Source: Clostridia bacterium
GTDB taxonomy: Bacteria > Bacillota_A > Clostridia > Lachnospirales > Cellulosilyticaceae
Direction: 5' to 3'
DNA: 10,499 nt
Assembly: GCA_029239935.1 (NCBI GenBank)
Contig: JARBTY010000097.1
Location: forward strand, 1 to 10,499
The notes beneath the pieces are model-generated. The model was not told the origin of the DNA. It searched no databases and worked only from the letters and a program-made list of their open reading frames with translations. A program made the translations under genes and the position numbers. How positions within the stretch are numbered: the stretch's first letter is position 1; every line of letters begins with the position of its first letter. Shown in pieces: positions 1,081-8,916 of this stretch.

Positions 1081-2721
1081 ATGAAAATAGCTATTTACGC
1101 ACGTAAATCCAAAATGAGTGAACAAGGTGAGTCCATAGATAATCAAATTAATACCTGTAAAGACTATTTGTCTAGATGGTCCTCTTTTGCGGATAAAGAA
1201 ATAGAATTTATAGTCTATAAAGATGAGGGGTTTAGTGGTGGGAATACGGACCGTCCTGAATTTCAGAAAATGCTCAATGATGCTAGAGCCAATATGTTTA
1301 ATGCGCTTGTTTGCTATAGACTTGATAGGGTATCTCGTAATATTGCGGATTTTGCAAATACCTATCAGCTCCTCCAAGAGAATACTATAGAGTTTATATC
1401 CGTTAAAGAGCAATTCGATACCTCTACCCCTATTGGCCGCGCCATGCTTAATATTGCGATGGTTTTTGCTCAGCTGGAGCGTGAGACCATTGCAGAACGT
1501 ATCAGAGATAATATGCTGAGTTTGGCCAGAACCGGCAGATGGCTTGGCGGGAATACGCCAACTGGCTTTAATTCAGAACCCATAGAATATTTGGATCAAA
1601 ATATGAATACTAAAAAGATGTATAAGTTAACTGAAGATCCGGAAGATCTGGCAAAGGTAAAGCTTATCTTTTCTAAATTCCTTGAAATAAAAAGTTTGCG
1701 TGGCACCGAATCCTATTTATTAGTGCATGACATTCTTACAAAGAGAAATTGTAACTATACTGCATCAACGATTAAGGATATCTTGCTCAATCCTGTTTAT
1801 GCAGCTGCTGACGGACAGATCTATGACTACCTCTCTTCTATTGGCTGCCAAATATGTAATGAAGAAAAAGACTTTAAGGGCCATCATGGACTGATGGTTT
1901 ATAATAAAACTTCTCAAAGTGGAAAAGCTCCTGTCTCTAAAGACTATAGTGAATGGGTTGTAAGTATCGGAAAGCACAAACCTGTGATCAGTGGATCTGA
2001 ATGGATAGTCGTTCAAGAACTCTTAGACTCTAATACGTCTAAAAGCTTCTATACGAAAGGTACCATGCAATATGGACTATTGACCAATTTAATCAAATGC
2101 GCCCACTGTGGCTCAAATATGAAGATTAAAAAGGGTAAAATGAACGCCGATGGGCATCTAGCCTATACTTATGTCTGCACAACCAAAGAAATGTCCAGAC
2201 GGACAAAATGTTCTGTGAAAAATATTATTGGACAAGAGGCGGATAAAGATGTTTTAACATACCTATTAGACCTTTCAAAAGATGACTCTTTTATGCAGTC
2301 CGTCCTTTCTACTAATAAGATCACCCTTACAAGTACAATAGAACAAACAACCAATAGATTAAAAGAGTTAAAGGAATCTCTTAAAGCCAATGAGAGCGCT
2401 ATTGACAATCTAATGAGTCAGTTGTCAAAGCTGCCTCCTGACAGTAGTCTCATAACCCGTTATATGAAGCAGTTAAATGATTTGGATGTATTAAATAAGG
2501 ATCTTCGAGTAGGCATAGAGAAGCTGCAGTCAGAAGAGGCTGCACAACATACGATGAATCTTAACTTAGACTTAGTGAAAAAGGCCTTAGATGACTTAAA
2601 CTATCTTGGGGATACAGAGGATATACAAACGCAGCGCGCATTGATACGTACCGTTATTGAGGCTATAACATGGGATGGGGAAAATCTTCAAATAGATCTA
2701 TTTGGGCAAAAAAAAAACTAG
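1081..2721 (+). CDS. Large serine recombinase LSR1 (site-specific integrase/excisionase of element 1)
   Basis: This 546-residue protein is a large serine recombinase. The N-terminal resolvase domain starts IAIYARKS, where Ser10 is the expected catalytic nucleophile, and continues with DEGFSGGNTDRPEF, the arginine motif YRLDRVSRN and the long helix AMVFAQLERETIAERIRDNM. The recombinase domain follows, then a zinc ribbon with Cys340, Cys343, Cys366 and Cys377, then a coiled-coil region (about 410-500) typical of the family. Length is normal. The start is ATG 1081, where AAGGGTGA gives good spacing; GTG 1072 and ATG 1075 overlap that ribosome binding site. It sits at the right end of element 1, co-oriented with dpaA. 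The family integrates, and with a partner protein excises, DNA through 5'-phosphoserine links. By context it should excise element 1 from dpaA. Confidence 0.95.
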   Translation: MKIAIYARKSKMSEQGESIDNQINTCKDYLSRWSSFADKEIEFIVYKDEGFSGGNTDRPEFQKMLNDARANMFNALVCYRLDRVSRNIADFANTYQLLQENTIEFISVKEQFDTSTPIGRAMLNIAMVFAQLERETIAERIRDNMLSLARTGRWLGGNTPTGFNSEPIEYLDQNMNTKKMYKLTEDPEDLAKVKLIFSKFLEIKSLRGTESYLLVHDILTKRNCNYTASTIKDILLNPVYAAADGQIYDYLSSIGCQICNEEKDFKGHHGLMVYNKTSQSGKAPVSKDYSEWVVSIGKHKPVISGSEWIVVQELLDSNTSKSFYTKGTMQYGLLTNLIKCAHCGSNMKIKKGKMNADGHLAYTYVCTTKEMSRRTKCSVKNIIGQEADKDVLTYLLDLSKDDSFMQSVLSTNKITLTSTIEQTTNRLKELKESLKANESAIDNLMSQLSKLPPDSSLITRYMKQLNDLDVLNKDLRVGIEKLQSEEAAQHTMNLNLDLVKKALDDLNYLGDTEDIQTQRALIRTVIEAITWDGENLQIDLFGQKKN

Positions 2722-2737: not shown

Positions 2738-2745
2738 CTTTACGC

Positions 2746-3258
2746 ACTTGTGTAGCGATAGCAAATGCAATACCCACTGCCGAAGGAGCTATTCAATACG
2801 CTATGCAAAACAGCGAAATTACGCTCCATGGCAGTCGATGTCTTGTGTTAGGATTTGGGCGTTGTGGCAAAATATTAGCGCATAAACTACAAGGATTAGG
2901 AGCAGCTGTTTCGGTTGAAGCAAGATCCACCTTAGATTTATCTTATATCAGTACTTATGGATATACTCCTATTCCGTTATATGATTTAAGTAAATATCTT
3001 GGACAATTTGATTTTATTTTTAATACGATTCCAGTTGTGATCTTAGATAAGTCAGCTATTAATCTATTCAATCCAGATGTGGTTTATATAGAGCTGGCTT
3101 CTGTTCCTGGTGGTATTGACACGCAGTATTGTCATCAAGTGGGCATTCGTCATATACCTGCACCTAGTTTGCCTGGCATAGTTGCTCCAAAAAGTGCTGC
3201 TAATATTCTATATCAATGCCTCTTATTGATTTTACGTGATCAGGGGGCGAATTTATGA
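2746..3258 (+). CDS. dpaA: Dipicolinate synthase subunit A, 3' part; gene interrupted by element 1
   Basis: This is the C-terminal part, about 170 residues, of DpaA (SpoVFA), the Rossmann-fold subunit of dipicolinate synthase. The enzyme turns the lysine-pathway intermediate (hydroxy-)tetrahydrodipicolinate into dipicolinic acid in the mother cell. The reading frame resumes near ACT TGT GTA GCG (2746-2757) and reads VAIANAIPTAEGAIQYAM, matching the region before the nucleotide fold of the family. The GxGxxG motif follows in VLGFGRCGKILA, then NTIPVVIL, ELASVPGGID and the C-terminal PAPSLPGIVAPKSAA. In B. subtilis the protein is 297 aa, so about 125 N-terminal residues are missing and should lie left of element 1. 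An ATG at 2803 lacks a ribosome binding site and would begin inside the fold. The TGA stop overlaps the dpaB ATG by 4 nt, indicating translational coupling. No frameshift or internal stop is seen, so it looks preserved rather than decaying. Confidence 0.9.
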   Translation, partial: TCVAIANAIPTAEGAIQYAMQNSEITLHGSRCLVLGFGRCGKILAHKLQGLGAAVSVEARSTLDLSYISTYGYTPIPLYDLSKYLGQFDFIFNTIPVVILDKSAINLFNPDVVYIELASVPGGIDTQYCHQVGIRHIPAPSLPGIVAPKSAANILYQCLLLILRDQGANL

Positions 3259-3629
3259 AGGAATTAAAAGAACTAAAACTTGGAGTTGCACTTTGTGGCT
3301 CTTTTTGTACTTTTTCTAAGGCTATAGCATTAATTGAGGAATTAGTAGCTTTAGGTATTAATGTATTTCCTATTATGTCCTCAAATGCTTATACGTTGTC
3401 TACACGTTTTGGTGAAGCATCAGAATTTAATAGTCAAATAGAAAAAATAACAGGTAAACCTATTATACACACCCTTGTAGATGCTGAACCTTTGGGGCCT
3501 AAAAATATAATTGATGCACTGCTGATTGCCCCATGTACTGGAAATACTCTAGCTAAGCTCACTTATGCGATTACTGATACGCCGGTACTGCTTGCTGCAA
3601 ATACTACCCTGCTCAAAATTACGGTTTAA
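3255..3629 (+). CDS. dpaB: Dipicolinate synthase subunit B, 5' part; gene interrupted by element 2
   Basis: This is the N-terminal part of DpaB (SpoVFB), a flavoprotein-like subunit that works with DpaA. The family features are GVALCGSFCTFSKA (about residues 10-23), TRFGEASEF, DAEPLGPKNIIDALLIAPCTGNTLAKL and then ITDTPVLLAANTTL. Residues 1-119 (to 3611) are native. The remaining codons to the stop at 3627-3629 come from element 2 and give a truncated 124-aa protein that lacks the ISTND and PFGQDD regions. The ATG overlaps the dpaA stop in ATGA. Joined to 8686-8916 it gives a 195-aa protein, against 200 aa for B. subtilis SpoVFB. As it stands the truncated product should be inactive. Confidence 0.92.
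   Translation: MKELKELKLGVALCGSFCTFSKAIALIEELVALGINVFPIMSSNAYTLSTRFGEASEFNSQIEKITGKPIIHTLVDAEPLGPKNIIDALLIAPCTGNTLAKLTYAITDTPVLLAANTTLLKITV
3595..3627. other. attL of element 2 (left junction in dpaB)
   Basis: Homology to DpaB stops after the CTG codon at 3609-3611. Aligned without gaps to the right junction (offset 5,074 bp), the shared bases are GCAAA at 3597-3601, CT at 3604-3605 and TG at 3610-3611. I favour TG as the crossover dinucleotide because it rebuilds NTTLRN, the best match to KATIRN in B. subtilis SpoVFB. The three choices differ only in residues 117-119. Confidence 0.75.
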
Positions 3630-3669
3630 ATCTTTCTTATCACCCTCTGAAATAATGGATCTATATTTT

Positions 3670-4107
3670 CTATTCTTCATTATTACTGTTATATTGACTC
3701 AGCTTTTCATTAATTTGTCTGGCCTGTTGCTGACCATCCATATACATCATCGTATAAACGGACCCATTTACAATAATAACAATGATACTATAACCTATCA
3801 TAAGGTTTGCATCTACCATTTTGTTTGGACTAAAAAACCACAGCCATGCTATAATAATAATTTCAGCCAATAAATGACAAATAGTAAAATTAAGGACTTG
3901 CATTTTTTTTTCTAATTTATATTTATTGAGTAAACCAATTTTGAAAAATGTGTAGGCTGAAGCGATAATCATAATTTGCCAAAGCAATGAAGTATTTATT
4001 GTCTTTACAGAAGAAATTCCTAAAAACAGTGTAACAATAACCAGCAAACATCCACAGGCAAGAAAAAAATCTTTTAAAAAACAAACTAAATATTTACTCA
4101 TATTCAT
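3670..4107 (-). CDS. DUF3021 family four-helix membrane protein
   Basis: This 145-residue protein has four hydrophobic segments at about residues 8-30, 40-60, 70-92 and 101-122, and a charged, Gln/Asn-rich tail. The order and the pairing with a LytTR gene fit the DUF3021 family, small integral membrane proteins usually encoded directly downstream of a LytTR-domain regulator. Its ATG has a GGGAGGTC ribosome binding site, and only 12 nt separate it from the end of the LytTR gene, so the two form an operon. In such pairs the membrane protein is thought to modulate the regulator, but the mechanism is not established here. It is the leftmost gene of element 2 and converges on the interrupted dpaB 5' part; I see no clear terminator between them. 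Confidence 0.8.
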   Translation of the reverse strand: MNMSKYLVCFLKDFFLACGCLLVIVTLFLGISSVKTINTSLLWQIMIIASAYTFFKIGLLNKYKLEKKMQVLNFTICHLLAEIIIIAWLWFFSPNKMVDANLMIGYSIIVIIVNGSVYTMMYMDGQQQARQINEKLSQYNSNNEE

Positions 4108-4119
4108 AGTAAGACCTCC

Positions 4120-4557
4120 CTATAATCCTAATTTTTTTTTAAATAACGGAACATATTGTCTTGAAATAAAAACTTTTTCTCCATTTTGAAGTAAAGCTTC
4201 AAATTTCCCATAAAAAACAGGACTTACAGATTCTATCTTTGTAATATTAAGAATAGAAGATTTTGAAGCTCTAAAAAAATCCCAGTTCTCATACGCTGCT
4301 TCAATCTCATAAAGTTTAAGCTTAGATTCAAAAACTTTTTTCTGACAATAAATAAAGACTTTATTATCTACTGACTCGAAATAAAAGACATCTTTAGGAT
4401 TGATAATATGTGTTTGTGAATCTGAAACACCAATAAGCTTTTTACAAGCTGATTGAACAGAATAGATAAGCTGCTGTAATGAGTCGTCTGATTCATTGCA
4501 TCTTATGATTATTTCTGGTTCACTTCCAACTGGAATATTTTCAATAGTTATTTTCAC
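4120..4557 (-). CDS. LytTR-domain DNA-binding response regulator-like protein (no receiver domain)
   Basis: A 145-residue protein. The N-terminal 40 or so residues (VKITIENIPVGSEPEIIIRC) are the short leader seen in stand-alone LytTR regulators, and the rest is a LytTR DNA-binding domain: INPKDVFYFESVDNKVFIYC, then FFRASKSSILNITKIESVSP and a final VFISRQYVPLFKKKLGL. No phospho-receiver domain is present. I chose the GTG at 4557-4555: a run of seven G (about 8 nt upstream) serves as ribosome binding site, and the in-frame ATG at 4587 lies upstream of the transcription start expected from the -10 box at 4593-4588. It is followed by the DUF3021 gene. Candidate LytTR-type direct repeats lie at 4728-4759, upstream of both this operon and the 48-aa peptide gene. 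Confidence 0.88.
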   Translation of the reverse strand: MKITIENIPVGSEPEIIIRCNESDDSLQQLIYSVQSACKKLIGVSDSQTHIINPKDVFYFESVDNKVFIYCQKKVFESKLKLYEIEAAYENWDFFRASKSSILNITKIESVSPVFYGKFEALLQNGEKVFISRQYVPLFKKKLGL

Positions 4558-4587
4558 TTGGGCATCCCCCCCTTTTTCTATAGTCAT

Positions 4588-4616
4588 AGTATATGCTTGA
4601 AATAAGCTCTATTCAA
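4588..4616 (-). promoter_or_regulatory. Sigma-A promoter of the LytTR-DUF3021 operon
   Basis: On the reverse strand TTGAAT (4616-4611), a 17-bp spacer and TATACT (4593-4588) make a good promoter. Transcription would start near 4581, about 25 nt before the GTG start codon, and this excludes the upstream ATG at 4587. Confidence 0.65.
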
Positions 4617-4727
4617 TAGATGTCAAAGTAAGCTGCAGTATTGAAAGGGTAAGCTGTATCCAGATAAACTTGATAACATCATTTTTAGAAATGAGTGGAT
4701 TATATAGGAAATAATGATAAACTCTTT

Positions 4728-4759
4728 ACATTTCTATAACTTAGAATTTACATTTCTAT
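4728..4759. promoter_or_regulatory. Tandem 13-bp direct repeat, candidate LytTR binding site
   Basis: TTTACATTTCTAT occurs at 4725-4737 and again at 4747-4759, a 22-bp period that places both copies on the same DNA face. Paired direct repeats about two helical turns apart are the normal target form of LytTR regulators, and the ACATTTCTA core resembles the ComE-type half-site (ACAnTTcaG). The copies end just before a promoter-like element with a poor -35 (TAGTAC 4762-4767) and a TATTAT -10 (4785-4790) reading toward the 48-aa gene, an activator-type layout. Confidence 0.55.
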
Positions 4760-4775
4760 GATAGTACGTGGTAAT

Positions 4776-4793
4776 CTAATAAGCTATTATTAG
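4776..4793. repeat. Short inverted repeat in the promoter region of the 48-aa gene
   Basis: CTAATAA (4776-4782) and TTATTAG (4787-4793) are perfect inverted arms around GCTA and overlap the proposed -10 box. It could be an operator; it may also be a chance feature of AT-rich DNA. Confidence 0.3.
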
Positions 4794-4851
4794 AATAGAT
4801 ATGAAATAATATAGTCATTTCTTATCTATTCATTTTAAGGAGGTCATGCTT

Positions 4852-4998
4852 ATGTTCACACTCCATAGTATTTTTAAAAACTCTGTTCTGCTTGTCCTTT
4901 TCTGTCTGTACAGTATCGGTATGTTCTTATTCTTCATGAAATATCGCAGTTCATCAAAAAAGTATATCATGCTTACCAAAGAGTACTATCTAACTTAA
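4852..4998 (+). CDS. 48-aa single-pass membrane peptide
   Basis: An open frame from ATG 4852 to TAA 4998 encodes MFTLHSIFKNSVLLVLFCLY, continuing through a hydrophobic core (SIGMFLFFM) to a basic segment (KYRSSSKKY) and ending KEYYLT. One membrane helix (about residues 11-29) with a positive, probably cytoplasmic, C-terminal side is predicted. AAGGAGG stands 8 nt before this ATG; the in-frame ATG at 4846 is too close. The gene is followed by a good terminator. It lies downstream of the candidate LytTR repeats, so it may be the regulated output of the LytTR-DUF3021 pair, for example a small toxic or signalling peptide, but no family is recognised. It is easily missed by gene callers because of its length. 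Confidence 0.65.
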   Translation: MFTLHSIFKNSVLLVLFCLYSIGMFLFFMKYRSSSKKYIMLTKEYYLT

Positions 4999-5040
4999 AA
5001 ATGCTTATTATACTGACATGTGTAATAGGCATTTTTCTTT
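4999..5040 (+). terminator. Rho-independent terminator after the 48-aa gene
   Basis: AAATGCTTATTA (4999-5010) pairs with TAATAGGCATTT (5023-5034), 12 bp with one G-U pair and a 12-nt loop, followed by a T-rich run to 5040. It begins directly at the stop codon and separates the 48-aa gene from phoH. Confidence 0.75.
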
Positions 5041-5063
5041 ACCATTAAATTAGGAGGTATACG

Positions 5064-6464
5064 ATGATAAAAACTTATGTACTGGATACCAATATTCTAA
5101 TCCAATCACCCCATGCCTTGCTTGCTTTTGAAGATAACAAGGTTGTTCTTCCTATTGCTGTATTGGAAGAATTAGATAAGTTAAAAACTGAGGAAGGGGA
5201 AAGAGGTATCAATGCCAGACAAACAATACGGTATTTAGAACAATTAAGGCAAAACGGTAATCTATTTGAAGGTGTAACCTTAGAAACAGGTGGACTTCTT
5301 AAAATCGAAGCAAATTTCGCTCATGTTGAACTGCCCTATGGTTTCGGTTCAGATGTAAATGATAACCGTATCTTAAAGATTTGTAAAGGATTGGCAGAAA
5401 AAGGTGAGTCTATCGTTCTTGTAACCAAGGATATTCTAGTTCGCTTAAAATCCCAGCGGATTGGTATCGCCGCTGAGGATTTTACAACAGAACAATCTCC
5501 TCACCTACAGGAGCAGTATACCGGTAGGCTGGAGGTCTATGCATCTGATCATGCAATGAGCGATTTCAAGAAAAAAGGTCTTCTTCCCGAGCAGGTTTAT
5601 CAATATACTAAGGTAGAAACCCAAATTTCAGACAGTTTGCCCAGTGTTGTAAAACCAGAAATTTGTCCAGTTTACAATCAGTTTTTTATTATCCATTCTG
5701 AAACTAATGAGAAGAAAACGCTGTTAGGCCGCTTCAACGGCAAACGCATTGTTCCATTAAAAAGTCTTAAGGAAGAGCCTTTTGGGGTACAGCCTAAAAA
5801 TGTAGGCCAAAAATTTTTACAGGAGGCCTTAATGATGGAACCGGACATAGCTCCTTTAGTAATCGTTAAAGGTCCTGCCGGTACCGCTAAAACCTTCTAT
5901 TCTCTTGCTGTGGGACTGGACAAGATATTTAAAGAAGCTAAAAAAAATTATAGAAAGATACTGATTACAAGACCCAATATGCAGTTTGACAATGATATAG
6001 GTTTTCTTCCCGGTACAGAGCAGGAAAAGATTGCCCCCTACTTAAGGCCTATTATTGATAATCTTGAAATCTTGGTAGACCAAAGTGAAAACGAGCGGTA
6101 TAAGAATGAGAAGGAATTACGTGGTAAAATTGACGAACTGTTTGCTCGTGAAATCATTACGACAGAAGCAATGAATTTCATCAGAGGTCGTTCCATCACC
6201 TATACCTATCTTATTATTGATGAAGCCCAGAATCTGACTCCCAAACAGGTAAAGGGCATTGTGACAAGAGTAGGAAAAGGTACTAAGGTTATCCTCCTCG
6301 GGGATCCTGGGCAGATAGACCATCCTCTTTTAGATGAACGCACCAATGGACTTAGCTATGCTTCCGAAAAGATGAAAGGGAGTCCGCTATGCTATCAGAT
6401 AACCATGCTGACAGAGGAGTGTGAAAGATCCGCCCTAGCCCTAGATGCTGCCCAAAGGATGTAG
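5064..6464 (+). CDS. PIN-PhoH family ATPase (YlaK/PhoH2-like)
   Basis: This 466-residue protein is a fusion of an N-terminal PIN nuclease-like domain and a C-terminal PhoH ATPase, full length for the YlaK/PhoH2 type. The PIN part opens YVLDTNILIQSP (Asp8), with acidic residues in AVLEELDKLK (Glu35/36) and FGSDVNDNRIL. The PhoH part has a Walker A GPAGTAKT at residues 270-277 and a Walker B LIIDEAQN with Asp386-Glu387, then VILLGDPGQID. Family members in mycobacteria have RNA helicase and RNase activity; the role in Clostridia is not settled. The ATG has a good AGGAGG 5 nt upstream. No separate promoter is evident between the preceding terminator and the gene. It is the largest cargo gene of element 2, and I see no sign of decay. 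A copy on the core chromosome would show that this one is an accessory paralogue. Confidence 0.92.
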   Translation: MIKTYVLDTNILIQSPHALLAFEDNKVVLPIAVLEELDKLKTEEGERGINARQTIRYLEQLRQNGNLFEGVTLETGGLLKIEANFAHVELPYGFGSDVNDNRILKICKGLAEKGESIVLVTKDILVRLKSQRIGIAAEDFTTEQSPHLQEQYTGRLEVYASDHAMSDFKKKGLLPEQVYQYTKVETQISDSLPSVVKPEICPVYNQFFIIHSETNEKKTLLGRFNGKRIVPLKSLKEEPFGVQPKNVGQKFLQEALMMEPDIAPLVIVKGPAGTAKTFYSLAVGLDKIFKEAKKNYRKILITRPNMQFDNDIGFLPGTEQEKIAPYLRPIIDNLEILVDQSENERYKNEKELRGKIDELFAREIITTEAMNFIRGRSITYTYLIIDEAQNLTPKQVKGIVTRVGKGTKVILLGDPGQIDHPLLDERTNGLSYASEKMKGSPLCYQITMLTEECERSALALDAAQRM

Positions 6465-6493
6465 GTGTAAATAAGGTTACGTATAATGGCCTA

Positions 6494-6544
6494 ATAAAGC
6501 AGATAGTTAGGTTTTGTTTTAACATTGACCACTATCTGCTTTAT
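6494..6544. terminator. Inverted repeat between phoH and the convergent 61-aa gene, likely bidirectional terminator
   Basis: The arms 6494-6507 and 6531-6544 (core AAAGCAGATAGT / ACTATCTGCTTT) pair perfectly over 14 bp with a 23-nt loop. It lies between two converging genes. The T-tracts on both sides are weak, so termination is plausible rather than certain. Confidence 0.6.
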
Positions 6545-6567
6545 ATATCAATTTTGCAATATAAAAT

Positions 6568-6753
6568 TTAATTTTCTATTAATTGACTGAATATTTGTTT
6601 TTGAATAGATAGAGGTAGTTCTTTCACCTGCTCTATTGTCTTGAGGACTAGAAATCTAGTCACTTGTTCTTCCACATAACTTCCCTTGGTACTTTCTATG
6701 GGTGATTTATCCCTCCAAAACAAATTGACTTCATAGATCTTTGCAGTCCTCAC
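6568..6753 (-). CDS. 61-aa hypothetical protein of element 2 (candidate recombination directionality factor)
   Basis: GTG at 6753-6751 is preceded by AGGAGGGG with about 6 nt spacing and opens a 61-residue frame beginning MRTAKIYEVNLFWRDKSPIE. The middle is TKGSYVEEQVTRFLVLKTIE and the end QVKELPLSIQKQIFSQLIEN, so the second half is predicted helical and amphipathic. There is no membrane segment and I recognise no family. It is the gene nearest LSR2 and is transcribed away from it. Excision by large serine recombinases needs a small partner protein (for SP-beta the 58-aa SprB). As the only small soluble protein in the element it is the best positional candidate, but nothing in its sequence proves this. 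Confidence 0.6.
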   Translation of the reverse strand: MRTAKIYEVNLFWRDKSPIESTKGSYVEEQVTRFLVLKTIEQVKELPLSIQKQIFSQLIEN

Positions 6754-6880
6754 TTCGCCCCTCCTGACTAAAGAAAATTTAACAAGTACTATTCATAGTA
6801 TTATCTCATCCAATATACTTGAGGATAGGATGTTTTGATTGTTCACACGCTATAAGTCCTTTATAAATCATATGCTACTA

Positions 6881-6909
6881 TTGACTTGTACTATACTTTC
6901 AAAAATATT
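6881..6909 (+). promoter_or_regulatory. Possible promoter of LSR2
   Basis: TTGACT (6881-6886), a 17-bp spacer and AATATT (6904-6909) could drive LSR2 with a leader of about 100 nt. The match is moderate. TACTAT occurs at 6876-6881 and 6889-6894, 13 bp apart, and with its inverse at 6787-6800. I could not find a convincing sigma-E or sigma-K promoter by eye. Confidence 0.3.
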
Positions 6910-6959
6910 ACCACAGAAGATACAGAAGTCTATGGCTTATATTTTATATTTCTAGTTTT

Positions 6960-7016
6960 AATCTCCTCCTCGAATTAATATGATAAATAATAATACAGCA
7001 CACTAAGGAGGGGGTT
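6960..7016 (+). promoter_or_regulatory. Leader hairpin that can sequester the LSR2 ribosome binding site
   Basis: AATCTCCTCCT (6960-6970) can pair with AGGAGGGGGTT (7006-7016) over 11 consecutive positions, two of them G-U. The second arm is the whole Shine-Dalgarno of LSR2 and ends at the base before its ATG. The 35-nt loop is AT-rich. Such a fold would hold translation down. Confidence 0.45.
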
Positions 7017-8696
7017 ATGAAAATTGCAATATATGCACGAAAGTCACGAATGACAGATAAAGGTGACTCTATCGAAAATCAAATATCCCTTTGTAAACAA
7101 TACGCAGCAATACATTTTCAAGATGCAGTCTTTACTGAATATAAAGATGAAGGCTATAGCGGCAGTAATACTAATAGACCAGCTTTTAAAGAACTCCTGC
7201 AAAATTTTAAAAAAGACCACTATGATGTTCTTATATGCTATCGTCTAGACCGTATTAGCCGTAATGTTCTGGATTTTTCTTCTACTCTTGATCGGTTGAC
7301 TAAAAACAACATTGCTTTTGTATCCATTAAAGAAAACTTTGATACAACAACACCTATGGGCCGTGCTATGCTTCATATTTCTTCTGTTTTTGCACAACTT
7401 GAAAGAGAAACGATTGCAGAACGTATTCGTGACAACATGCTTGAACTTTCTAAAACCGGCAGATGGTTAGGGGGTACCACGCCCTTGGGTTATCAATCAA
7501 AAAAAATGACTTATGACGGAGAGCATCATAAAATAAAGCATTATACAATACTAGAAGTAGATACTTCTACTGCACCCATTGCGAAGCTTATTTTCAAAAA
7601 GTATATCGAACTTGGTAGTTTGTCTCAGCTTGAAAGTTATTTGATGCAAAAAGGATTTCGTACACTGCATAATAAATTTTATCACCCTCATGTTTTAAGA
7701 AATATTCTTGCCAATCCTGTCTATACAATGGCAGATCAGACTATTTATGATTATTTTTATAAGCTTGATGCCTATATAGCTCATCCTAAAGAAGATTTTA
7801 CAGGTAACTGTGGTCTCATGGTCTATAACAAAAACAGACAAGGAAAAACTATCTACAAAAATGATGTATCTGAGTGGGTTGTAGCTATTGGTCAGCATCA
7901 GCCTCTCATTAGTAGTACCTCATGGTTAGAGGTACAAAAGCAACTGTCTTCAAATGTCCACAGGGCCATCCCCCATAATCATCAGTCAAATCACGCTCTT
8001 TTAACAGGGATCATCAGTTGTGAACACTGCGGAGCCCCTATGAAGGTTACTAATCAAGCTGTTCTTAAAGATGGTTCAATAAGCTATATTTACCGCTGTA
8101 CAACTAAACTGAAAAGTCATGGGACACTTTGTCATATTCAAAATGCTAAAGGGCATTATCTAGATACTGCTATTATTGATAAAATTAAAGGAATGATTGC
8201 CAATAAGGACTATCTGATTGAAAAGCTATCCCATGAGCGCCTGATGACTACTTCTCACCAGCTGAAAACAGAAAAAAGCGTTTCAGTACTTGAAGAGGAA
8301 TTAGGACAAAATGAAAAAGCTGTTTCTAAACTTGTAAGACTGATTGCTTCTTGTGAAGATGCACTGATGGAGGAGGCCTATCATGATGAAATAATCAGCC
8401 TTCACAAAGACCAGATGGTCTTAAAGGAAAAAATTTCGGAACTTAAAAATGAGGAAAATCAAGATTACAAACTAGCTCAAAATATTGATGTTATCGTAGC
8501 TGCCTTAAAAAACTTTGATCAACGTATTGATGAGGCTTCTATAAATGAAAAGCGTCTCCTTTTACAATCCATTGTTCACTCTGTTACTTGGGATGGAAGT
8601 AAAGTGAATGTGTATCTTTATAAATCTAAACAGGATTTTGAAAATAACAACCGTAATTCTCAGCATAGTCGCAAAATCTCTTATGAGAAACAGTAA
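7017..8696 (+). CDS. Large serine recombinase LSR2 (integrase/excisionase of element 2)
   Basis: This 559-residue large serine recombinase is clearly related to LSR1. It begins MKIAIYARKS with Ser10 as expected nucleophile, then DEGYSGSNTNRPAF, YRLDRISRN and SSVFAQLERETIAERIRDNM. The recombinase domain follows, then a zinc ribbon with Cys335, Cys338, Cys361 and Cys372 at the same spacing as in LSR1, and a coiled coil (about 410-490). The ATG is unambiguous, with AAGGAGGGGG just upstream. The gene lies at the right end of element 2, co-oriented with dpaB, and its last codons run across attR: with crossover at 8684-8685, the final residues EKQ and the stop are read from dpaB DNA. In the excised circle the tail would be different. 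It should mediate integration into and excision from dpaB. Confidence 0.95.
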   Translation: MKIAIYARKSRMTDKGDSIENQISLCKQYAAIHFQDAVFTEYKDEGYSGSNTNRPAFKELLQNFKKDHYDVLICYRLDRISRNVLDFSSTLDRLTKNNIAFVSIKENFDTTTPMGRAMLHISSVFAQLERETIAERIRDNMLELSKTGRWLGGTTPLGYQSKKMTYDGEHHKIKHYTILEVDTSTAPIAKLIFKKYIELGSLSQLESYLMQKGFRTLHNKFYHPHVLRNILANPVYTMADQTIYDYFYKLDAYIAHPKEDFTGNCGLMVYNKNRQGKTIYKNDVSEWVVAIGQHQPLISSTSWLEVQKQLSSNVHRAIPHNHQSNHALLTGIISCEHCGAPMKVTNQAVLKDGSISYIYRCTTKLKSHGTLCHIQNAKGHYLDTAIIDKIKGMIANKDYLIEKLSHERLMTTSHQLKTEKSVSVLEEELGQNEKAVSKLVRLIASCEDALMEEAYHDEIISLHKDQMVLKEKISELKNEENQDYKLAQNIDVIVAALKNFDQRIDEASINEKRLLLQSIVHSVTWDGSKVNVYLYKSKQDFENNNRNSQHSRKISYEKQ

Positions 8697-8701
8697 GCCT
8701 G
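8669..8701. other. attR of element 2 (right junction in dpaB, inside the LSR2 3' end)
   Basis: Homology to DpaB resumes at AGA (8686-8688), which begins RNSKPVIVAISTND. The bases shared with attL at a 5,074-bp offset are GCAAA 8671-8675, CT 8678-8679 and TG 8684-8685. The site overlaps the last codons of LSR2. Confidence 0.75.
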
Positions 8702-8916
8702 TTATTGTAGCGATATCAACCAATGATGGCCTTGGACTTAACTTCAAAAACATAGGCACTCTCATGCCTAACCAACATGTTTATTTTGTTCCATTTGGCC
8801 AAGATGACAGCATTAAAAAAACTAACTCGCTTGTAGCTGATTTGTCTAAAGTGCCTGAAACAATTGCACTGGCACTTGACCATATTCAGATACAACCTGT
8901 ATTAATTGAGTATTGA
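8684..8916 (+). CDS. dpaB: Dipicolinate synthase subunit B, 3' part; separated from its start by element 2
   Basis: This fragment encodes the last 76 residues of DpaB: RNSKPVIVAISTNDGLGLN, then FVPFGQDDSIKKTNSLVADL and LDHIQIQPVLIEY, which align over the whole length with the C-terminus of B. subtilis SpoVFB. It has no ribosome binding site; the open frame extends left to 8608 only because it runs inside LSR2. An ATG at 8683-8685 in this frame arises at the junction and lacks a Shine-Dalgarno. Joined to 3255-3611 it completes a 195-aa protein. It is free of stops or frameshifts, which argues for selection on the rejoined gene. A strong terminator follows directly. Confidence 0.92.

Follow-up and report, generated by a model that had tools for sequence, protein, structure and literature searches.

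The window, that is, the whole 10,499-bp stretch of DNA analysed here, from a Cellulosilyticum-like bacterium, carries two open pieces of dpaB that lie 5,074 bp apart with the gene of a large serine recombinase (LSR) in between. The two pieces, both free of stops, correspond to positions 2-118 and 119-193 of the NCBIfam profile for dipicolinate synthase subunit B. The dpaA gene of the window is split as well, the right end of its own element (element 1) lying at 2764-2770. The features are as follows.

1081..2721, plus strand: LSR1, the recombinase of element 1 (in dpaA)
2741..2757: right arm of the element 1 attP repeat, by homology with isolate genome G019
2764..2770: AATGCAA, crossover word at the dpaA attR, assigned by homology to G019
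2764..3258, plus strand: 3' part of dpaA, whose 5' part the contig does not include
3255..3601, plus strand: dpaB 5' part, host sequence as far as the crossover word
3597..3601: attL crossover word GCAAA, central dinucleotide AA predicted at 3600-3601
3602..8675: intervening element 2, 5,074 bp
3602..3624: attP inverted repeat, left arm (TACTACCCTGCTCAAAATTACGG)
3670..4107, minus strand: cargo, 145-aa protein, membrane-like by eye, without Pfam or PHROG match
4120..4587, minus strand: cargo, LytTR DNA-binding protein (PF04397, E 7.7e-24)
5064..6464, plus strand: cargo, PIN and PhoH ATPase protein
6568..6753, minus strand: ORF of 61 aa, oriented divergently to LSR2; candidate recombination directionality factor
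7017..8696, plus strand: LSR2, large serine recombinase, 559 aa
8651..8670: attP inverted repeat, right arm (CCGTAATTCTCAGCATAGTC)
8671..8675: attR crossover word GCAAA, central AA predicted at 8674-8675
8671..8916, plus strand: dpaB 3' part, host sequence starting at the crossover word

Element 2 thus sits inside a mother-cell sporulation gene (dpaB by NCBIfam) and encodes a site-specific recombinase. In the integrated state, the dpaB 5' frame continues to a stop at 3629, giving 124 aa.

The crossover site

A first-pass annotation of this DNA had proposed that dpaB can be rejoined exactly in frame, with its left part ending at 3611 and its right part resuming at 8686. The 5,074-bp spacing and the 195-aa product that it gave are both correct, the product being equal in length to the intact gene of a relative (L001), and the core of the proposal stands, since empty and occupied sites in relatives support an LSR element whose exact excision would restore the full-length gene. 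The position of the junction does not stand. The empty site in G020, a relative with unsplit dpaB, reads GCTGCAAAATCTCTTATGAGAAATGG, and the right end of the window already reads GCAAAATCTCTTATGAG ahead of 8686, so that the boundary of host DNA falls within the word GCAAA on both sides, at 3597-3601 on the left and 8671-8675 on the right. The junction is consequently 10 nt further upstream, which changes four residues of the product: NTTL, at positions 116-119 of the left piece, is encoded by the element, and the GCAAA join restores the LAAKSLMRN of relatives.

The symmetry of the circle junction (attP) was compared for all joins that keep the 5,074-bp spacing and fall between 3570 and 3639. 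The join 3601/8675 gave the most symmetric attP (16 of 22 pairs, the next join reaching 11), while the earlier join fell outside the top five. By chance, over 10,439 centres in the window, symmetry averaged 6.0 (sd 2.1), and 16 was reached at 2 centres. The attP of G021 pairs at 21 of 22 positions, and a single attB is common to empty and occupied sites. The TG junction (3611/8685) was accordingly rejected, on the strength of the empty sites in relatives and of attP symmetry. A scan for words shared near both ends also led to GCAAA, recombination at which would restore the frame exactly and yield a 195-aa protein that matches L001 without gaps at 72.3%, against 70% for the earlier join. The GCAAA-joined DpaB scores 242.8 bits and passes the TIGR02852 cut-off of 229, a score that barely discriminates between joins (241.5 for the earlier one).

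Between the window and G019, both split, dN/dS is 0.14 and 0.165 for the two dpaB parts and 0.12 for the dpaA part, values that are only rough because dS is high (0.9-3.1). The comparison indicates purifying selection on each half of dpaB.

The recombinase and its neighbours

LSR2 scores over the cut-offs for the resolvase N-terminal (PF00239), Recombinase (PF07508) and zinc-ribbon (PF13408) domains, and matches the TP901-1 and SP-beta (SprA) integrases of solved structure. Its last six residues and stop are encoded by host dpaB DNA. Such a dpaB-type tail, read in the LSR frame, ends 15 of 120 LSR2 relatives among the matches listed; the LSRs seen in dpaB and those bearing the tail signature fall on the same side of a supported branch (96/99), and LSRs cluster according to target gene.

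The 5-kb elements look non-phage: no structural PHROG was found among the five non-recombinase ORFs of element 2. A search of viral contigs gave no relatives of LSR2. The four larger elements examined (in dpaA of G019, G021 and G023 and in dpaB of G021) are all prophages, carrying phage structural genes among the selected ORFs.

The 61-aa ORF is 49% to an ORF at the equivalent place in G019, has weaker relatives in other dpaB elements, and is conserved beside or near the LSRs of these elements. Fold and sequence searches returned no other homologue and no match to SprB or to a solved structure; the predicted model has a pLDDT of 78. On a contig of G009, mltG sits between the dpaB 3' part and a directionality-factor-like ORF, and because mltG intervenes, a rearrangement or misassembly is possible and the contig is weak evidence.

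Split genes in relatives

Among 24 family genomes surveyed, dpaB is split at the same codon, the site being codon 115-116, in four with both halves seen (G002, G003, G019 and G021), whose halves join without gaps into 193-197 aa; in two more, the right half alone was seen. The dpaA gene is split in 5/24 and sigK in 4/24, and in Cellulosilyticum sp. I15G10I2 dpaA, dpaB and sigK are all split. Niameybacter massiliensis lacks an intact dpaA or dpaB. Across the relatives compared, dpaAB has three insertion sites and sigK has two, and the same sites occur in the family empty, with a 5-kb element and with a 46-kb element. SpoVAD is present in all eight genomes with split dpaA or dpaB.

Some candidate splits were discarded or are less well defined. 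The dpaA of G008 was counted as unsplit, contigs C111 and C71 overlapping at their ends, and the sigK genes of G005 and G024 carry frameshifts without an element. For the dpaA of G023 the join search found a shared word of only 3 letters, and for the sigK of G008 and G020 it found none, the coordinates given being probably off.

Promoters and timing

A sigma-K-type promoter precedes dpaA in 12 aligned genomes, six of them split; the corresponding region of the window is off the contig. Within the window, none of the candidate sites for sigma K, E, G and A ahead of LSR2, LSR1 or the 61-aa ORF scored above shuffles. Outside it, the best candidate was a sigma-A-like site in G005 (1/200 shuffles); others were weak, for example a sigma-E-like site in G005 (24/200 shuffles). 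When viral contigs were scanned for exact copies of two attP junctions, no circle junction turned up. Excision of element 2 is a prediction, and its presumed timing in the mother cell is based on the role of the gene and on the sigma-K-type promoter before dpaA in relatives.

Discussion

Several sporulation genes are split by comparable elements. Skin is an LSR element in sigK of B. subtilis and C. difficile. Like element 2, it occupies a mother-cell sporulation gene, and sigK is split in relatives of the window too, its LSR there belonging to a separate branch; skin, however, hits a sigma factor, whereas element 2 hits an enzyme downstream of sigma K. SP-beta, in spsM of B. subtilis, encodes the LSR SprA and the small directionality factor SprB. 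Element 2 likewise pairs an LSR, which matches SprA, with a small candidate factor, but its 61-aa ORF does not match SprB. The first-pass annotation rightly pointed to a Bacillus whose spoVFB contains such an element: vfbin is described as a serine recombinase element in spoVFB of Bacillus weihenstephanensis KBAB4, where the gene is reported to become whole during sporulation (Abe 2013, as cited in PMC4191935, PMC10747680, PMC5595907 and PMC6957869). From these accounts, vfbin and element 2 are both serine recombinase elements in the gene for dipicolinate synthase subunit B, but the host of vfbin belongs to another class of Firmicutes, and in the window dpaA is split too. The gin element in gerE of B. 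cereus ATCC10987 is, as described in PMC5595907, non-phage like element 2, with a short shared word ending in AAA and AA as predicted cleavage dinucleotide, but it measures 28.6 kb and has three recombinases, against 5 kb and one. Yin, an LSR element in yabG of C. botulinum, also splits a clostridial sporulation gene, but a different one, and is described as prophage-like (PMC10747680). Element 2 belongs with skin and vfbin, a known kind, but its form is new: both subunits of one enzyme are split at once.

It is likely that LSR2 excises the dpaB element at GCAAA, and that the mother cell would thereby regain a 195-aa DpaB while the forespore keeps the element. LSR2 would act on the two GCAAA sites and cut out the 5,074-bp element, the product of the 61-aa ORF may set the direction of recombination, and excision would be confined to the mother cell; the rejoined dpaB would then provide DpaB for dipicolinic acid synthesis. 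LSR1 would restore dpaA likewise, so that two excisions would be needed before the enzyme is made. A wider hypothesis, which I put forward tentatively and at somewhat less than even chances, is a cascade in which sigK, dpaA and dpaB are interrupted by separate elements, each gene having a recombinase lineage to itself. Up to three mother-cell excisions, sigK first and then dpaA and dpaB (under the sigma-K-type promoter), would precede synthesis of the enzyme, and phage and non-phage elements would swap gene-specific recombinase units.

One could suppose instead that an ordinary mobile element landed in dpaB by chance and that DpaB comes from a stand-alone paralogue, the split gene being dispensable. 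The split genomes G002, G003, G018 and G019 and the unsplit G020 do each carry an intact dpaB paralogue that exceeds the NCBIfam cut-off, so that dpaB excision may not be indispensable in the first four. But the dpaB parts are stop-free, with purifying selection indicated between two split genomes, no second dpaA copy was found in the family search, and G021 has both genes split without intact dpaA or dpaB, which together make this explanation quite unlikely. The observation that, according to the first-pass annotation, would have told against excision, an intact second dpaAB with the halves decaying, is thus half borne out: four split relatives keep a dpaB paralogue, but no second dpaA was found and the halves are not decaying. 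Unlikely, too, is that excision occurs by phage-like induction or by chance in growing cells, a subpopulation with whole dpaB then sporulating. The failure to find a sporulation promoter for LSR2 or the 61-aa ORF and the structural genes of the four larger elements agree with this idea, as does yin, whose excision is reported in a fraction of the population at every time point tested (PMC10747680); against it, insertion recurs in mother-cell genes (at the three dpaAB and two sigK sites), as for known sporulation elements.

Repair at the RNA level by a self-splicing intron would account for the precise interruption of the coding frame, but no Rfam family, introns included, reached the gathering threshold in the window, and the insert encodes an LSR and shows attP symmetry, so that the chance of an intron is close to nil. 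An assembly artefact, conceivable for a window that is a single metagenome contig of 10.5 kb, is highly improbable, given that the same double split lies on a 1.44-Mb contig of isolate G019 and that an LSR2 99% identical to this one, ending in the same host-coded tail, is found on a JGI contig (P0002).

The recombinases described here are candidates for gene-specific integrases whose attB and attP sites are defined. The empty, 5-kb and 46-kb states allow one to test why elements settle in mother-cell genes, and the family, how recombinases stay bound to a gene while the cargo changes. The splitting of a single sporulation gene is a known curiosity; here the genes of both subunits of one enzyme are split, joined in a cultured relative by sigK, and, if the proposed pathway is true, spore core chemistry would require several DNA rearrangements, in a set order, within a terminal cell.

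The dpaB crossover site

The window, a contig of 10,499 bp in its full length, contains the 3' part of dpaA, the 5' part of dpaB, element 2 (the 5,074-bp insert), the 3' part of dpaB, dut and the start of mltG. The first-pass annotation had joined the two dpaB parts at a TG (3611/8685), with the gene resuming at 8686. The crossover was located by side-by-side comparison of empty and occupied sites of relatives. Host-like GCAAAATCTCTTATG already stands at the right end of the element, upstream of the proposed resumption codon, and that codon was abandoned. The word common to both ends of the element is GCAAA (3597-3601 and 8671-8675), and a circle closed there has the junction CCGTAATTCTCAGCATAGTC-GCAAA-TACTACCCTGCTCAAAATTACGG, in which 16 of 22 pairs are symmetrical about the AA; alternative joins of equal spacing give at most 11. 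The same symmetry is 21, 15, 13 and 13 for the dpaB elements of the related genomes G021, G003, G002 and G019, respectively. The rejoined protein contains LAAKSLMRNSKPV, as do those of relatives. It scores 242.8 bits, over the dpaB family cut-off, as does the product of the TG join (241.5).

Host dpaB DNA at 8673-8696 also encodes the final six residues and the stop of LSR2, the large serine recombinase (LSR) of element 2 (7017-8693); in the excised circle the LSR2 frame would extend with 17 other residues.

Split genes in the Cellulosilyticaceae

Among relatives found with the window dpaA part, the closest are G019 (87.1% identity), G003 (86.9%), G002 (85.1%) and G020 (83.9%). Recombinases of G019 and G021 show full identity to the named proteins P0005 and P0010, respectively, which identifies the two genomes as Cellulosilyticum sp. 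I15G10I2 and Niameybacter massiliensis. The former is a coal seam gas pond isolate (PMC5313616), and the full text of that paper does not mention sporulation. Its dpaA, dpaB and sigK are all split within 165 kb, over spans of 46.8, 4.7 and 67 kb, each bounded on the right by an LSR. In Niameybacter the spans are 47.6 kb (dpaA) and 45.9 kb (dpaB), and a genome search found no intact dpaA or dpaB.

Twenty-four family genomes were sampled. By our own count of match rows, dpaB was matched in 22 and uninterrupted in 15; it lies in two halves in four (G002, G003, G019, G021), the right half alone was found in two (G005, G009), and G018 has only a paralogue. For dpaA there were matches in 18, of which 12 are uninterrupted (G024 and G010, counted here, each have one stop codon), one is spread over two contigs (G012) and five are split. 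Both halves were seen around a break at codon ~128 in G019 and G023 and at codon ~263 in G021, and the left half only in G009 and G018, the latter also with a frame change. At least one of the two genes is thus split in 8/24 genomes, all eight of which are among the 18 encoding SpoVAD; both are whole in G020 and in the Candidatus Cellulosilyticum pullistercoris metagenome-assembled genome (L001). sigK is in two pieces at codon ~112 in G019 (L131, L095), G008 (L133, L089) and G017 (L132, L093), and at codon ~144 in G020 (L134, L135). An LSR gene adjoins a sigK piece in all four, that of G020 with weak similarity.

In G009 C18 (L084), the dpaB 3' part is separated by mltG, whose order is inverted, from an ORF resembling the candidate directionality factor described below; this may reflect inversion or misassembly.

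Across the order, DpaB was matched in 152/295 genomes. Inspection by eye of the matches listed from the 130 matching genomes outside the family revealed no break near codon 119; G284 is a contig-edge fragment, and G033, absent from that listing, is full length. From these sequences, the split-dpaB habit looks confined to Cellulosilyticaceae within the order sample.

Recombinases and cargo

A tree was built from 24 LSR sequences. Thirteen are dpaB recombinases, five seen in dpaB and eight assigned by their tail, a C-terminal type encoded by dpaB DNA in the LSR frame, which occurs in 15/120 LSR2 relatives listed. These 13 share one side of a branch (support 96/99); as midpoint rooting places the root next to the long G021 dpaA-263 branch, that is all the tree says of them. 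The four dpaA-128 recombinases form one group (99/99), as do the three sigK recombinases with two unlabelled ones (99/96). Recombinase grouping thus follows the target gene. LSR2 has a further match, under the cut-off, to NF041201 (E 5e-37), the XisF entry for the fdxN heterocyst element.

Among selected ORFs, phage terminase, portal, tape-measure, sheath or head matches were found in the dpaA elements of G019, G021 and G023 and the dpaB element of G021. The dpaB elements of the window, G019 and G002 measure ~5 kb. The cargo of element 2 includes LytTR, PIN-PhoH and a membrane-like protein; the G019 element encodes an AgrB protein (in the stretch L077:10391-12704) and the G002 element a GHKL kinase (in L002:10371-12603). 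AgrC-like kinase genes lie in both of the latter stretches, and a small G019 ORF (L077:11876-12061) looks, by eye, like an AgrD peptide precursor. Element 1, the dpaA insert whose right end alone lies in the window, is probably a prophage, because its recombinase LSR1 is 82% identical to that of the G019 dpaA prophage and 99% identical, over 326 residues, to that on IMG/VR contig L096. The repressor-like genes of L096 differ despite this recombinase identity.

The 61-aa ORF divergent from LSR2 (6568-6753, minus strand), a candidate recombination directionality factor, has its sole close kin in G019 (49%). Weak kin were obtained by tblastn in G002 (E 1e-4) and G021 (7e-4), with a weaker one in G009 (0.05), and the G005 counterpart was recognised by position and alignment only. 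An ORF truncated at the contig edge (1-180, minus strand) resembles 62-aa ORFs of dpaA-type phages (L096:6563-6751, L077:1771-1959) and, by eye, is possibly kin of the 61-aa ORF.

Selection, promoters and excision

When the window is compared with G019, both being split, NG86 estimates of dN/dS come to 0.12 in the dpaA part and to 0.143 and 0.165 in the dpaB parts. In seven comparisons the dpaB parts range over 0.07-0.14 and 0.04-0.17, at high dS. With a consensus taken from PMC3416734, a sigma-K-type promoter, GCAC[AC]-N14/15-CATAnnnTA, was found upstream of dpaA in 12/12 genomes aligned, six of them split; its score was exceeded by only 0-4 of 300 shuffles in 11/12, and the G001 promoter, with a spacer of 14, was left unscored by the scan.

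The first-pass annotation proposed that LSR2 excises element 2 in the mother cell. Intact stand-alone dpaB genes, present in G002, G003, G018, G019 and G020 (5/5 over the TIGR02852 cut-off) and with no adjacent dpaA in the two cases inspected, count against this reading. The promoter scan found no sporulation promoter upstream of LSR2 or the 61-aa ORF, and no excised form was seen. The G003 contigs end 94 and 99 bases into the dpaB element and its LSR is absent from the bin, at most a hint of a mixed population.

The stand-alone genes (L007, L008, L028, L031, L032) are ~41% identical to the operon copy; that of G002 is flanked by cobT-like and cobQ-like genes, named by eye.

Relation to known elements

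Elements already described include vfbin in spoVFB, skin, SP-beta in spsM, gin in gerE (vfbin, gin: PMC5595907) and yin in yabG (PMC10747680). Open-licence PMC literature yielded no report of split dpaA, of both subunits split or of such elements in Cellulosilyticum. Since vfbin-type elements are known and no report of both subunits being split was found, the splitting of dpaA and dpaB represents a known kind of element in a new arrangement.
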